From positions 1 to 26,678 of the IMG/VR virus record IMGVR_UViG_3300049491_000538: a stretch of DNA of 26,678 nt. One strand, given 5' to 3'. Below, one piece after another: positions 18,500 through 26,582 of the stretch. Position numbers and translations under genes: made by a program. The notes beneath the pieces are model-generated. The model was not told the origin of the DNA and did no database searches. It was given only the letters and a program-made list of their open reading frames with translations. The first letter of the stretch is position 1, and each line of letters starts with the position of its first letter. This stretch comes from a virus.

Positions 18500-18892
18500 A
18501 TGAGCAACACCGCCATCGACAGAGCAGGATTTGGCCCCATCGAGGGGCAAGAGTCCGTCGTCCCGTTCAACGCCAACCTAGGAACGTCGGCTGTCGAGGT
18601 CACGGCACAACCTGCGTTCCTCGCCGCGCAGACCGCCTACCCAGGCGCCCAGTTTTGGCGCGTGAAGATCTTCAACAGCTCAGCGTCCGCCACGATCGCG
18701 TGGGGCACCGGCAACGACCGGTCCACCATGACCGCCGACTTCGCGGTAACGTGCGGGTCCCACATTGCGCCGGGGCAGGCCGAGTACTTCGCCATCCAAG
18801 GCAGCCGCTCCGGTGTGCCCCTCCGCAAGCTGTGGCTTGTTGCCAGCGCCATTGGTACCTCGGCCAGTGTCACATTCACACCGGTGGGATGA
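18500..18892 (+). CDS. Small beta-rich virion protein, unknown
   Basis: A 130-residue protein with GAGGA (18486-18490) nine bases upstream of its ATG. The sequence reads as a small beta-sandwich (WRVKIFNSSASATIAWGTGN, SHIAPGQAEYFAIQG, KLWLVASAIGTSASVTFTP). Such small proteins often cap or associate with phage fibres. I do not recognise the family. Its stop overlaps the ATGATG start of the next gene. Confidence 0.6.
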   Translation: MSNTAIDRAGFGPIEGQESVVPFNANLGTSAVEVTAQPAFLAAQTAYPGAQFWRVKIFNSSASATIAWGTGNDRSTMTADFAVTCGSHIAPGQAEYFAIQGSRSGVPLRKLWLVASAIGTSASVTFTPVG

Positions 18893-19596
18893 TGCAACGC
18901 TCTTGGTCTCCCCTTGGTTGGCAAATGTCGCCCCGTAGGGGCGCGGCCTTCTCACCCCTTGCTCTCACTTCTCTTTTGGGGTGGTGGAAGAGCGACGTCG
19001 GCGTCACCGTCTCTGCCGGCGTTAGCCAGTGGAACGACCAGAGCGGCAACGGCAACCATCTCGTGCAAGCGACTGGTGCAGCGCAACCAACCAGGACACT
19101 CGGCGCCGTCAATGGCCTGCCGTCCATCGACTTCGACGGCTCCGACGACAGCATGGGCGTCACGTTCGCGATGGCTCAACCGACAACGGTGTTCCTGTTC
19201 GCTTCTCAGACGACGTGGACAATCTTCGATGTGCTGCTTGATGGCAATCCGACGAACGGCACCATGCAAATTTTGCAAAACGCTGTCTCGCCAAACCTTG
19301 AAATGCGCGCAGGCGCCGCGCTTGGTCCAAACACCAACCTGCCGTTGACAACGTTTGGACTCATCACGGCGATTTTCAACGGCGCTTCGTCGACACTGCA
19401 AGTCAACAACACTGCCGAGGTGAACGGCAACGCAGGAGCCAGCGGCGGCGGCGGCATCCGTCTTGGGTGCCGTGGCGACGGCGGCGGTAACTTTGCCAAC
19501 ATGCGAGTGCTTGAGGCGATCGTAACGGGCGCCGTCGCCACATCGACAGAGCGAACCAATGTCCGCGCTTACGGCAGTGCGCGGTATGGTATCTGA
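18889..19596 (+). CDS. LamG/concanavalin-like lectin-domain protein
   Basis: A 235-residue protein starting at the double ATG 18889/18892. The same frame is open far upstream, but that part is out-of-frame translation of the adhesin genes. The core (about residues 25-230) carries the hallmark pattern LLGWWKSDVGVTVSAGVSQW, NDQSGNGNHL, then LPSIDFDGSDD of LamG/jelly-roll lectin domains found in phage and bacterial surface proteins. It probably binds glycans on the host or assists adsorption. The N-terminal 25 residues include a short hydrophobic stretch but no convincing signal peptide. It overlaps the lipoprotein gene by TGATG. Confidence 0.72.
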   Translation: MMQRSWSPLGWQMSPRRGAAFSPLALTSLLGWWKSDVGVTVSAGVSQWNDQSGNGNHLVQATGAAQPTRTLGAVNGLPSIDFDGSDDSMGVTFAMAQPTTVFLFASQTTWTIFDVLLDGNPTNGTMQILQNAVSPNLEMRAGAALGPNTNLPLTTFGLITAIFNGASSTLQVNNTAEVNGNAGASGGGGIRLGCRGDGGGNFANMRVLEAIVTGAVATSTERTNVRAYGSARYGI

Positions 19597-19964
19597 TGCG
19601 TGTTGCCGTCGCCCTCTTGCTTTGCGCATCCTGCGGATGGGGACCGGAGTTCTTCGACTGTGGCGACGTCGACGAAAACACAGCGCGCGCACTGGCCACC
19701 GACCGCGAAGTTCTCGCCGTGTTCAACCGCATGGATTTCTTTTGCGAGTCGCGTGATGAGGTCGTTCGTGATTGTCGGAACGAAACAGCAGAGGCCTGTA
19801 CACTCTGGCTCGGGTCATCCCTTGCTCGTGGCCGTTCCTTTTATTCGAACGAGGCAACCGAGGGGCTGTTGCCCTTACTCGAACACGAGATGACGCACTG
19901 GGATGGTCCTCGTCGTGGCGATACCTGCGAGCAACACCCCCCACAGTGTGATGGCGAACCATGA
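19596..19964 (+). CDS. Secreted lipoprotein with HExxH zincin-like motif
   Basis: A 122-residue protein. The first 13 residues (MRVAVALLLCASC) make a very short lipoprotein-type signal ending at Cys13, or possibly Cys10. The mature part has six further cysteines (22, 50, 60, 68, 111, 118), suggesting disulfides outside the cytoplasm. Near the C-terminus LLEHEMTHWDG holds HEMTH (97-101), the zinc-binding/catalytic pattern of HExxH metallopeptidases. D109 or H114 could be a third ligand. It begins the lysis-like cassette and overlaps the coiled-coil gene by ATGA. Outer-spanin position and topology suggest a role in envelope disruption, but exclusion or receptor masking are alternatives. Function is inferred only. 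The signal is short and lacks a strongly charged n-region. Confidence 0.65.
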   Translation: MRVAVALLLCASCGWGPEFFDCGDVDENTARALATDREVLAVFNRMDFFCESRDEVVRDCRNETAEACTLWLGSSLARGRSFYSNEATEGLLPLLEHEMTHWDGPRRGDTCEQHPPQCDGEP

Positions 19965-20338
19965 CAATCGAAATAGGCCTTGCATTGTTGGCGCTGCTTA
20001 CCGCCGTCGGCAGCGTCGCCCGAGTCATGTTTTCCACCGAGGTCAAGGCCGAGCACCTCGCCGCGGCGAACACCTCGACCGAGAAGAAGATTGAAACCTT
20101 GACCGGAAAGTCTCAGGCGCAGGACATGCTCATTAGCGACGCTGCGGCGAGCCACGCAGGGTTAAGCGCTCGCGTCGACGCCATCGCTGCCACGCTTGCA
20201 ATGAAGGCATCGGCTGAATCCGTTGTCGCCCTGAAAGAGTCTGTCGAGAGTCTTCGCCGCGACATCCACGACGGATTCGCCCGCACCGAGAAGTTGATCC
20301 AGCACGCAACACCACGACGCAACGACAACCGCGAATGA
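19961..20338 (+). CDS. N-terminally anchored coiled-coil protein, inner-spanin-like
   Basis: A 125-residue protein with one membrane helix at residues 2-24 (TIEIGLALLALLTAVGSVA) followed by about 95 residues of charged heptad-like helix (AEHLAAANTSTEKKIETLTG, VVALKESVESLRRDIHDGFA). This matches the topology of inner spanins (Rz-like) and of DUF2730-type lysis-region proteins. It lies between the lipoprotein and the holin-like gene, overlapping the former by ATGA. Together the two could span the periplasm. No sequence family is certain. Confidence 0.6.
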   Translation: MTIEIGLALLALLTAVGSVARVMFSTEVKAEHLAAANTSTEKKIETLTGKSQAQDMLISDAAASHAGLSARVDAIAATLAMKASAESVVALKESVESLRRDIHDGFARTEKLIQHATPRRNDNRE

Positions 20339-20348
20339 GAGGTAATCT

Positions 20349-20588
20349 ATGAGCAACGCACCCGACCCCGCCCACGACGGCGCCCTTGACCGATTCATGA
20401 CCAAGATCTTCGGCCGCAGCTGGCGCACCACCTGCGGCGGGCTCACGTCGCTGCTGCTGGGCGTTCTCGCCTTTGCTCCCGGTGTCCCCCCGGCCGTGAA
20501 AGATTTCGCTCGCGAAATCGCCCCCATCGTCGCCGGTGGCGGCTTGCTCTTGGCGAAAGATGCCAAGGTCAGCGGTCCGCCCAAGTGA
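20349..20588 (+). CDS. Holin-like small membrane protein
   Basis: A 79-residue protein with AGAGG six bases before the ATG. Two short hydrophobic segments are visible: GGLTSLLLGVLAFAPGVPPA (about 30-49) and IAPIVAGGGLLLAKDA (about 57-72), with RSWRTT before the first and LLLAKDAKVSG at the end. This arrangement is shared by a widespread small phage protein family found next to endolysins and usually labelled holin-like. A holin would permeabilise the inner membrane and time lysis. The gene overlaps the peptidase gene by GTGA, which supports a lysis cassette. Activity itself cannot be read from sequence. Confidence 0.6.
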   Translation: MSNAPDPAHDGALDRFMTKIFGRSWRTTCGGLTSLLLGVLAFAPGVPPAVKDFAREIAPIVAGGGLLLAKDAKVSGPPK

Positions 20589-21133
20589 CCATCCGTCAAG
20601 GCTTCACGGAGTGGGCAGACGAACCCGTCGGCGATGGAACGTCGTCGTTTCGGAATTCCGGATGCCTCGTCTGCTGCATTCGCGAGGCTGCTTTGCTCTT
20701 GGTGCCCGGCGAGACAGATGCCGACCCACGCATCACCAACGAGCGCGGGCGCAAGGCTGGCGCGTTCGTGAAATCGATGGCCATCATCGACAAGTTGGCG
20801 GCGGCAGAAGGCATCGAGGCAGGACCACGCATTGAGGGCTTTTCGGTAATGCGTGCCGTCATCATGCGCGCCATCTTGAGCAAAGAACTCGTGCTCCTGC
20901 ACGTCGACCACAACGCCGCTCGCCCTCACGGCGACGAAGCGCCCGACCACTTTGTTCTAGCGATCATGGTGTCGGAGAACGGCATCACGTTTACGGATCC
21001 CGCAACGGGAAAGACTGGCGTGCTGTCGGTGGCGACGCTCGAAGGTCCGTCAGGGTGGAAAGACGGCAGACACTACAAGGTCAAAGCCGTCCGGGTGCTG
21101 AAGCGAATGAAGCCGCCCGTGGCGCCGACGTAG
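20585..21133 (+). CDS. C39-like papain-fold cysteine peptidase; candidate endolysin
   Basis: A 182-residue protein starting with GTG inside the preceding stop codon. The pattern fits the C39-like papain fold: SGCLVCC (C27 as nucleophile after Ser-Gly, with C30/C31 nearby), then DHFVLAIMVSENGITFTDPATGK with H121 and D137 at the usual positions of catalytic His and Asp. Downstream of a holin-like gene and with no other muramidase, amidase or transglycosylase in the window, it is the best endolysin candidate. It would presumably cleave peptide bonds in peptidoglycan. There is no signal peptide, so a holin would be needed for export. A non-lytic virion or maturation peptidase is the alternative. 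Confidence 0.65.
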   Translation: MTIRQGFTEWADEPVGDGTSSFRNSGCLVCCIREAALLLVPGETDADPRITNERGRKAGAFVKSMAIIDKLAAAEGIEAGPRIEGFSVMRAVIMRAILSKELVLLHVDHNAARPHGDEAPDHFVLAIMVSENGITFTDPATGKTGVLSVATLEGPSGWKDGRHYKVKAVRVLKRMKPPVAPT

Positions 21134-23388: not shown

Positions 23389-24603
23389 CTACGGGCGAAA
23401 AAGGTCTGGTATTTTTTCGCCCTTGCGGACTTTCTTTGCGGCTGCCCTGGCGCTGCTGCCCGGCGCGAGTTGGCGACGGCTCCATTCATCGCAGCGGTGC
23501 CAAGCGATGCATGCATGTGCGGTGTCCATCTCGACGCCGATGATGTCGAAGCCCTCAAGGATCGCGGCGACGCCCGTCGTGCCGCTGCCGAAAAACGGAT
23601 CGAGGACGACACCGCCGGGTGGGGTGACGAGACGACAGAGGTGGCGCATGAGGTCGATTGGCTTCACGGTTGCGTGGATATTGCGTCGACCGTCAGCGGA
23701 GCGGCCTGCACCTGCACCTGGACTGCTGATCCCGACGCTGCCTTCAGCGCGATTGACGATCTCACCCGGCGACATCGACGGCAACCTCTCAAGACCCGCA
23801 TCGCGCTCGGCGCCGTCAGCCTTCGCCGAGTAGAAAAACCGTGACGTCGCCAGTGTACCACTCATCTCGTTGAGCGCTTGCCCCGCCTCATCGTCGAGGA
23901 TCACGTTGGCGGGCCAGCGGCCGACTGCTTGCGTCGGTGATGCATCCTCACGCCATCCACCGCCCATTGCGAGGCGTGGAGCCGTTGGCCCAGGCTGATT
24001 TATCATGACCTCGTCGCCGATCCTGCAACCGTCGACGTTGATTGCCCCCGTGCCGTGTGCCAGCACGTTTGCAGCGACAGTGCCGACGAGCGGCTTGCGT
24101 GCGACGATGACGGGCTCCATCGCAGGCTTGAGCGCGGTCCCCCAGCCCTGCCATTGTTTTGCATCGTTGGTGATCGGGTCGCCTTTGTCGGTCCGCTCGT
24201 AAAGCTGGCCAAATGAACGCTTGACCACATGCGCCGCGCCAGCTCGTCCGCGCCACTGGCCAACCGCCTTGTCGATCGCTTTGCTGACGTCGTGAGACTT
24301 GGGGAAGCCTGACCCAAACATCCACGCGATCTGGTCACGAATGTCGAATCCAGCGTCTTCGATCGCGCACGCGATGCGATGCACCGTGCGGGTCGCGCCG
24401 AACGCCAGCAGATGCCCGCCGGGCTTGAGGGCACGCAGGCACGCGGCCCACGTCGCAGGGTCAAAGGCGACGCCCGTCGAATCCCATGCCTTCCCCATGA
24501 AGCCATATTCGTAAGGCGGGTCGCAGACGATGCTGTCGACGGATTCGGCGGGCATCAATGCAAGAACGAGGCGCATGTCGTCGACGAGAACAGTAAACGT
24601 CAT
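23389..24603 (-). CDS. Beta-class DNA methyltransferase (N4-cytosine or N6-adenine)
   Basis: A 404-residue enzyme that would methylate phage DNA with S-adenosylmethionine. I chose ATG 24603 because it overlaps the helicase stop (ATGA). The open frame upstream is out-of-frame helicase. Motif IV DPPYEYG (28-34) comes first, HATVKP (310-315) follows, and the SAM-binding motif DPFFGSGTTG (335-344) is near the C-terminus, the order of beta-class enzymes. The intervening 270 residues include a variable target-recognition region. No restriction endonuclease is adjacent, so it is probably a solitary phage enzyme that protects against host restriction or marks its own DNA. The target is unknown. Confidence 0.88.
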   Translation of the reverse strand: MTFTVLVDDMRLVLALMPAESVDSIVCDPPYEYGFMGKAWDSTGVAFDPATWAACLRALKPGGHLLAFGATRTVHRIACAIEDAGFDIRDQIAWMFGSGFPKSHDVSKAIDKAVGQWRGRAGAAHVVKRSFGQLYERTDKGDPITNDAKQWQGWGTALKPAMEPVIVARKPLVGTVAANVLAHGTGAINVDGCRIGDEVMINQPGPTAPRLAMGGGWREDASPTQAVGRWPANVILDDEAGQALNEMSGTLATSRFFYSAKADGAERDAGLERLPSMSPGEIVNRAEGSVGISSPGAGAGRSADGRRNIHATVKPIDLMRHLCRLVTPPGGVVLDPFFGSGTTGVAAILEGFDIIGVEMDTAHACIAWHRCDEWSRRQLAPGSSARAAAKKVRKGEKIPDLFRP

Positions 24604-26213
24604 CCCTTGCTCCAGTTTCGCGCCAGCACGCGGAAGAACTTCTTTTCGCGCACGTAGCGCACGGTGTCCGGCGGTGGTGCCGCGCTCAGAGAGGCCGCTA
24701 CGTCGCTCAGAGAGGCCGTCAGCCAGCCATCGGCGAACTTGTGCCCACTGGCGCGGCAGTGGTCCGCAATCGCGCTCACGGTGCGCCACGCGCGCTCTCC
24801 GACGAAGCCATCGTGCGTGACCGTCATGTATTCCGTCACCGCGGGCGCCATGAGGTCGCTCCCGTAGTAGGTGGCCTGCAACATTTCTTTGCCGCTCGTC
24901 GTCGAGACATGGCGGCGCCAGACCCATTCTTTGACCGTCATCTCCAGCGCGGCGTCGAGGTCTTCGCCCATGATGTCAGCGTTGCGCAGGCTGAGATCTT
25001 TGTCCTTGGCGACGACCTCGAACCAGGTGCCGCAGGCGGGGCACTGCTTGACGCTGGCGTGGCAGATTTCGCCGCATTCCTTGCAGACCTTCGTCGGCGC
25101 GTCGCCTTTGCCCTTCTTCTTCGGCGGCTCGACGCGCGTGATCGGGCCGTGCGTCTCGACGACGCCAGCGAAGTCGAGCACAAGACAGTGGTCGGTGTGG
25201 CTCTTCGGCCGCAGGCCACGCCCCGCCATCTGCACGTAGAGCACGGGGCTTTTTGTCGGCCGCAGCATGGCGATCAGGTCGATGTCCGGATAATCGAATC
25301 CCGTCGTCAGCACGTTGGCGTTCGTCACCGCGCGCAGCTCGCCACGCTTGAATCGCCCGAGGATATCCTTGCGCTCTGCCTTCGGCGTGTCGCCGGTGAC
25401 GCACGCTGCCGGCACACCGCGCTGCTCGAGCACGGCAGCGATGTGGCGTGCGTGCTCGACACCGGAGCAGAAGAACAACCACGCCTTGCGCTCGCCAGCT
25501 TGCGCTATGACCTCGTCCACCACGGCGAGATTTTGCGGGTCGGTGTCGACAGCCGCGGCAAGCTCGGCCTCTTTGAAGTCACCGCGCGCAGTGCCGACGT
25601 CGCTGGTGTCGTATCGCAGCTTCGTCACCTTGGAGCGCAACGGCGCCAGATGCTTTTTGAAAAGCAATTCTTCGATGGTCACCGGCTCCACCAGGTGATC
25701 GAAGATCCCCGGCTTCTCGGTGATGAGACCGTGCCCAAGACGCCATGGTGTCGCCGTCAGCCCGACCACGCGCAGCGCTGGGTTGATCACTGTGAGCTCG
25801 CCGATCAGCTTGCGGTACCCGCCCTCGTCTTTGTGCGAGCACATATGTGCTTCGTCGATAATGACGAGGTCAACATGTCCGATGCGGTCCGCCTTGGTGC
25901 GCACCGTCTGGATGCCGGCGAAGGTGATGGGCTCGCCGAGACGCTTCCGCCCGAGGCTCGCCGAACAAATCCCCATCGGTGCACCGGGCCAGTGCTGGCG
26001 CATCTTCTCGGCGTTCTGCGTGATGAGCTCGCCGACGTGGGTGAGCATGAGCACGCGTGTGCCTGGCCATTGCGTCAGCGCGTCTTTGCACAGCGCAGCG
26101 ATGACGTGGCTCTTTCCCGCCCCCGTCGGCAAGACGAGGCACGGGTTGCCTTCCTTCGTCGACATGCACTCGTAGAGCATGTCGATCGAGCGCTGCTGGT
26201 AGTCACGCAACAT
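24600..26213 (-). CDS. SF2 DNA helicase with C-terminal zinc knuckle
   Basis: A 537-residue protein. I chose ATG 26213, which overlaps a preceding TGA (TGATG) and has AAGGA nine bases before that, although the frame is open to 26582. Motifs: RDYQ (3-6), Walker A PTGAGKS (29-35), DEAH (120-123), LTATPWR (152-158), TTGFDYP (303-309) and arginine-finger QMAGRGLR (328-335). This is the ResIII/UvsW-like layout of superfamily 2. A CxxC...CxxC knuckle (C377, C380, C391, C394) follows, then about 140 residues typical of phage replication helicases of this kind. It probably unwinds forks or R-loops during phage replication or recombination. It overlaps the methyltransferase start by ATGA. Confidence 0.9.
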   Translation of the reverse strand: MLRDYQQRSIDMLYECMSTKEGNPCLVLPTGAGKSHVIAALCKDALTQWPGTRVLMLTHVGELITQNAEKMRQHWPGAPMGICSASLGRKRLGEPITFAGIQTVRTKADRIGHVDLVIIDEAHMCSHKDEGGYRKLIGELTVINPALRVVGLTATPWRLGHGLITEKPGIFDHLVEPVTIEELLFKKHLAPLRSKVTKLRYDTSDVGTARGDFKEAELAAAVDTDPQNLAVVDEVIAQAGERKAWLFFCSGVEHARHIAAVLEQRGVPAACVTGDTPKAERKDILGRFKRGELRAVTNANVLTTGFDYPDIDLIAMLRPTKSPVLYVQMAGRGLRPKSHTDHCLVLDFAGVVETHGPITRVEPPKKKGKGDAPTKVCKECGEICHASVKQCPACGTWFEVVAKDKDLSLRNADIMGEDLDAALEMTVKEWVWRRHVSTTSGKEMLQATYYGSDLMAPAVTEYMTVTHDGFVGERAWRTVSAIADHCRASGHKFADGWLTASLSDVAASLSAAPPPDTVRYVREKKFFRVLARNWSKG

Positions 26214-26582
26214 CACGGCGGATCCTTCTTCGCGGCGTCTTTGGCAGCGTCTCCAGCGAGCAGCGCGGGCACGTCGTCGAGCGCGACGAGGCGAGAGCCG
26301 CGGGGCTTCTTCGCCGGGTCGATGGCCGTGGCCCCGAACGCCACGGCGACGTCGAGGTGTTCGCGTCACGCCGGGTCGCGACGTGCGAGCGGGTGTCGAC
26401 GGGCTTCGCGGCCGGGGCCGGCATCGACCCGGGAGTCGGTGCGCCAGCCGAGGTGCATGAGAACCTCGACGAGGGTGAGCCCGCCCCCGATCATTCATCA
26501 CCCACAGGGCTGCGATCGTCAGCTCGGCCCGGTGTGCCTCGGCTTCGCTGGGGGGGATGCGGAGGTAGGCGGGCTCGGTCAC
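26213..26582 (-). pseudogene. Frameshifted small gene upstream of the helicase
   Basis: GTG 26582 overlaps the previous stop (GTGA) and reads well for 30 codons (TEPAYLRIPPSEAEAHRAEL, TIAALWVMN). One base over, the next segment is protein-like (IGGGLTLVEVLMHLGWRTDS). A third frame then reads PAAKPVDTRSHVATRRDA, and the final segment is in the second frame (EHLDVAVAFGATAIDPAKKP, SRLVALDDVPALLAGDA), ending at TGA 26213-26215, which overlaps the helicase ATG. Length 370 is 3n+1, fitting one net inserted base. Codon bias stays strong in each piece, so sequencing indels or recent mutation are likelier than ancient decay. The intact protein would be about 120 residues, function unknown. Confidence 0.5.

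Follow-up and report, generated by a model that had tools for sequence, protein, structure and literature searches.

A zincin-motif gene between the tail and probable lysis genes of a P22-like podovirus fragment

We identified a gene for a small protein with the zincin signature HExxH in the whole stretch of DNA analysed here (the window), a 26678-base virus record without host assignment. The record carries a terminase, a portal and a coat protein of P22-like type and is a fragment of a P22-like podovirus. The reading we tentatively favor is that the product is an exported zincin whose HEMTHWDG segment binds zinc, and that it is made late and acts alone on the envelope, probably aiding lysis or release. 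Features of the region are as follows.

18889-19596, plus strand: 235-aa virion surface or tail protein (phrog_10356, 2e-16), with copies in related phages
19596-19964, plus strand: 122-aa zincin-motif protein, overlapping both neighbors, with a probable short export signal (CASC) at residues 1-13 and H97-E98-M-T-H101-W-D-G104
19884-19907, plus strand: HEMTHWDG codons (residues 97-104), putative end of a metal-binding helix
19961-20338, plus strand: 125-aa Cys-free protein that has a single hydrophobic helix at its N-terminus and probably a coiled coil
20349-20588, plus strand: holin-sized protein of 79 aa, moderately hydrophobic over one stretch, no family match
20585-21133, plus strand: 182-aa possible C39-like cysteine peptidase with C27, H122 and the Asp of a downstream TDP, no family match

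The zincin-motif gene and its neighborhood

The ORF, its motif, its Cys content and the gene order were read directly from the DNA, and they bear out the original observation of 122 residues, HEMTH, six further Cys residues and an ATGA overlap. The gene starts within a TGATG that it shares with the stop of the upstream gene, and it ends in an ATGA over the next start. Cys residues are present at positions 10, 13, 22, 50, 60, 68, 111 and 118, i.e., six beyond C13. Overlaps of 4 nt occur at five junctions of this operon, and the overlap between 19596-19964 and 19961-20338 is therefore uninformative.

We took 19596-19964 as coding because it overlaps genes at both ends and the surrounding genes are tightly packed; treating it as non-coding would open a gap of >360 nt in this stretch. 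It is the sole late gene without synonymous bias toward the phage's own codon usage, and its simple codon score is near zero and is equaled by one reverse frame. Such atypical codon use suggests that the gene may be a recent arrival. It would fit an exported zincin acquired recently as an accessory gene with a role outside lysis, such as alteration of the host surface or protection of the virion, a reading that also agrees with the zincin motif, with the orphan status described below and with the failure to find the gene in related phages. We consider it unlikely, though worth some weight: the gene is joined to a late gene on either side, an arrangement that points to late expression.

Family searches gave no match for the 19596-19964 product. 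A single-sequence query, which reaches close relatives only, found none in phages, viral contigs, bacterial genomes or the loci of related phages, and for the four genes encoding the zincin-motif, coiled-coil, holin-sized and C39-like proteins no relatives were found. Two candidates were rejected. The sole listed match, L002, was a shadow-frame match over 13 residues, and G047 matched residues 46-84 weakly, without the motif and with no similar ORF seen there.

The nearest known relative of the window is an IMG/VR contig with a portal segment 82% identical; it carries tail genes followed by a 590-aa ORF running off its end, and thus stops short of the lysis region. Further related phages were taken from bacterial genome records, several of which are bins of doubtful assignment. 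Screening of approximately 80 portal relatives, approximately 80 Hc3 relatives and 14 genome loci, many of which stop before the lysis region, revealed no small HExxH protein with lipoprotein-like features.

Two further observations concern gene layout. In L083 (1778-3145, minus strand), the protein of 18889-19596 occurs in two tandem copies, and the next ORF, of 590 aa, is cut off by the contig end. Elsewhere in the window, ORFs for a methyltransferase and a helicase (23389-24927 and 24600-26582, minus strand) have a listed overlap of approximately 330 nt, and the true start of the methyltransferase ORF probably lies further in.

The HEMTHW motif and the candidate export signal

HExxH (here H97, E98 and H101) was present in only one of the 31 likely gene products of the window, the zincin-motif protein. 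By chance, 0.14 proteins with this signature were expected when all 31 were shuffled, and it arose in 0.5% of shuffles of the zincin-motif protein itself. We also scanned viral contigs for the DNA of HEMTHW, read in frame, and obtained 96 other viral stretches, a set selected by the motif itself. Two recurrent families accounted for 75 of these, one with the ArdC/MPTase third-ligand helix (49) and a second with 26 members. Of the remainder, 17 were long frames of other kinds, most of which have a comparable helix ahead of the motif, and only 4 were short. An ArdC-type representative gave 6e-48 against PF18818. The commonest form was HEMTHW followed by TG or SG (45 stretches), which is close to the HEMTHWDG of the zincin-motif protein. 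In viral proteins, then, HEMTHW appears nearly always to mark a zincin-like site, and that of 19596-19964 is probably a real zincin motif as well, by an analogy only, since the scanned set was chosen by the motif. This context of viral zincins lends support to the metallopeptidase-type motif first proposed for the protein.

Similarity to ArdC and MPTase-PolyVal proteins (PF18818) is limited to the HEMTHW[T/S]G string, with no similarity outside the motif. The zincin-motif protein lacks the ArdC N-terminal domain and the EELVAE third-ligand helix, and, unlike ArdC, looks exported and Cys-rich. Membership in this family was rejected: 103 of 200 motif-keeping shuffles scored as high on the ArdC profile. 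Only 21 residues follow H101 and the ArdC-type third ligand is absent; from the sequence, D109, E112 or H114 could be guessed as the third metal ligand. AlphaFold models built without an alignment had very low confidence, with a pLDDT of 48 for the full-length protein and 44 when restricted to residues 14-122, and could not be used.

A recurrent viral family, present in L180, L185, L190, L194, L240 and approximately 20 more loci, contains SYGVHEMTHWLQQT in proteins mostly of approximately 173 aa. It often occurs on large contigs, up to approximately 480 kb. No Pfam match was obtained for the L240 member, and this family may be an undescribed zincin family.

The HExxH of the window could instead be coincidental, 19596-19964 being either a small exported protein that evolves fast and has no catalytic role, or an unexpressed ORF. 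The failure to find homologs that might share H97, E98 and H101, the near-zero codon score matched by another frame and the low-confidence models would all be compatible with coincidence. We nevertheless regard it as quite unlikely, given the 0.5% chance for a protein of this composition and the near-constant occurrence of HEMTHW in long zincin-like frames; an unexpressed ORF would, in addition, leave the long non-coding gap mentioned above.

The N-terminal signal of the protein, MRVAVALLLCASC, is short, and C13 is closer to the N-terminus than usual. A loose lipoprotein pattern was passed by three starts in the window, two of them in shadow frames, and the only one within a likely gene was that of 19596-19964. 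However, the CASC lipobox has a Cys at position -3 and conforms neither to the PROSITE-type pattern PS00013 nor to the published [LVI][ASTVI][GAS]C consensus. The lipoprotein-like signal claimed originally thus stood by the loose pattern and fell by the two stricter ones, in line with the accompanying caution that the lipobox is short and lipidation uncertain. Judged from these residues, export is plausible but weakly indicated, and lipidation is uncertain. The many Cys residues would suit an exported location.

The coiled-coil neighbor and the proposed spanin-type pair

Spanins act by membrane fusion. It had been proposed that the zincin-motif protein and the product of 19961-20338 form a spanin-like pair, in which an outer-membrane zincin lipoprotein and an inner-membrane coiled-coil protein together span the periplasm and break the envelope, proteolysis being an added activity. 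The outer-membrane role in this proposal presupposes a host with an outer membrane. Resemblance to lambda Rz/Rz1 is evident in that two adjacent, overlapping genes lie near probable lysis genes, one with a lipoprotein-like start and the other with a TM segment and a coiled coil. In addition, the operon ends at 21133, with no further same-strand gene where Rz lies in L171 (in which the Rz gene is placed after the lysozyme gene), and 19961-20338 was found to contain no lipoprotein-like start, both of which would suit a pairing with 19596-19964.

The neighbor itself matched its original description in part: it lacks Cys and has a single hydrophobic stretch that starts near residue 5, as expected for one N-terminal helix, and its coiled coil is probable, having been assigned by eye. 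Both flanks of the helix have a charge of -1, and with an acidic N-terminal flank the topology is not clearly the N-in one that an inner-membrane spanin would have. PHROG Rz-like models matched the Rz proteins of the related prophages L168 and L171, used as positive controls (best E values 5e-11 and 8e-23), whereas the 19961-20338 product scored 0.024 against phrog_739. This value is weak and non-specific, as a coiled-coil protein of a related phage that best matches a different family scores 0.02 against the Rz-like models.

Three related phages (L085, L120 and L167) have a gene for a TM and coiled-coil protein in the lysis region, which in L085 overlaps the endolysin gene by one base. These P22-like proteins (phrog_462) share layout and lysis-region position with the 19961-20338 product; homology between them was not detectable and was rejected. 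In none of the three was an HExxH lipoprotein found beside this gene, and its absence is suggestive evidence against the pairing.

Gene order and Cys content also depart from Rz/Rz1 and other known spanins. The spanin survey PMC6139136 describes o-spanin genes as lying within the i-spanin gene or after it, an order to which there may be exceptions, and gives a maximum of 4 periplasmic Cys residues among 526 o-spanins. In the window the order is reversed, with the lipoprotein-like gene first, and the candidate lipoprotein has 6 such residues. With these departures, the lack of a specific Rz match and the related phages without the lipoprotein, the proposal of a spanin-like pair is poorly supported. 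We retain it as a very unlikely reading because PMC6139136 leaves room for spanins of other topology. It is likewise very unlikely that a lipid-anchored metalloprotease with an inner-membrane coiled-coil partner cuts the ties between outer membrane and wall, replacing membrane-fusing spanins. No literature linking spanins to HExxH, a metallopeptidase or a metalloprotease was found.

Position, probable lysis genes and proposed function

As first described, holin-like and peptidase genes follow the pair: a holin-sized gene and a gene for a possible C39-like enzyme are present. The Cys/His/Asp spacing of the latter was judged by eye and, together with gene position, suggests that the 20585-21133 product is likely a lysis enzyme. 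The same layout, which would fit the favored reading, was observed in a related phage in a Spirochaetota bin (L177:8244-9139), where a TM protein gene overlaps a C39/DUF261-like gene by 4 nt; the protein at 8648-9139 of L177 matches DUF261 (2e-7). BLASTP gave no significant match between this protein and the 20585-21133 product.

Location also brings to mind the superinfection-exclusion lipoproteins of the Cor/Llp type; such a protein, produced during infection of the cell, would sit under the outer membrane and block the phage's own receptor, leaving HExxH structural or coincidental. In T5, Llp is encoded directly downstream of pb5 (PMC9586334); in T1, HK022, N15, ES18 and phi80, the Cor locus comes after the tail fiber cluster (PMC13164509). 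The zincin-motif protein is likewise small, Cys-containing and lipoprotein-like, and its gene comes immediately after the tail and virion-surface genes, so that position alone favors exclusion as much as lysis. However, at 122 aa the protein is larger than Llp (approximately 61 residues in the Llp structure), has more Cys residues and contains HExxH. In addition, a chance origin of HEMTHW is hard to accept, and the overlap with the probable lysis module is as tight as that with the tail genes. Exclusion of this type is an unlikely reading but a live rival, with a precedent in gene order.

Export, zinc binding, catalysis, substrate and timing are inferred in the favored reading, an exported zincin acting alone. 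The gene 19596-19964 would encode a small, disulfide-rich exported protein, possibly lipid-anchored, and its HEMTHWDG helix would bind zinc as zincin peptidases do. The gene, at the end of the tail operon, would be expressed late. Its product would act on its own, at the envelope or within the periplasm, and probably cut an envelope protein, helping lysis or release. The possible C39-like enzyme would make up the main lysis module together with the holin-sized and coiled-coil proteins.

According to PMC6139136, some phages of Gram-negative hosts have no recognizable spanin, and their route through the outer membrane is called open there. The present case is one orphan sequence; an exported phage metalloprotease at the spanin position would, if true, be a directly testable alternative.
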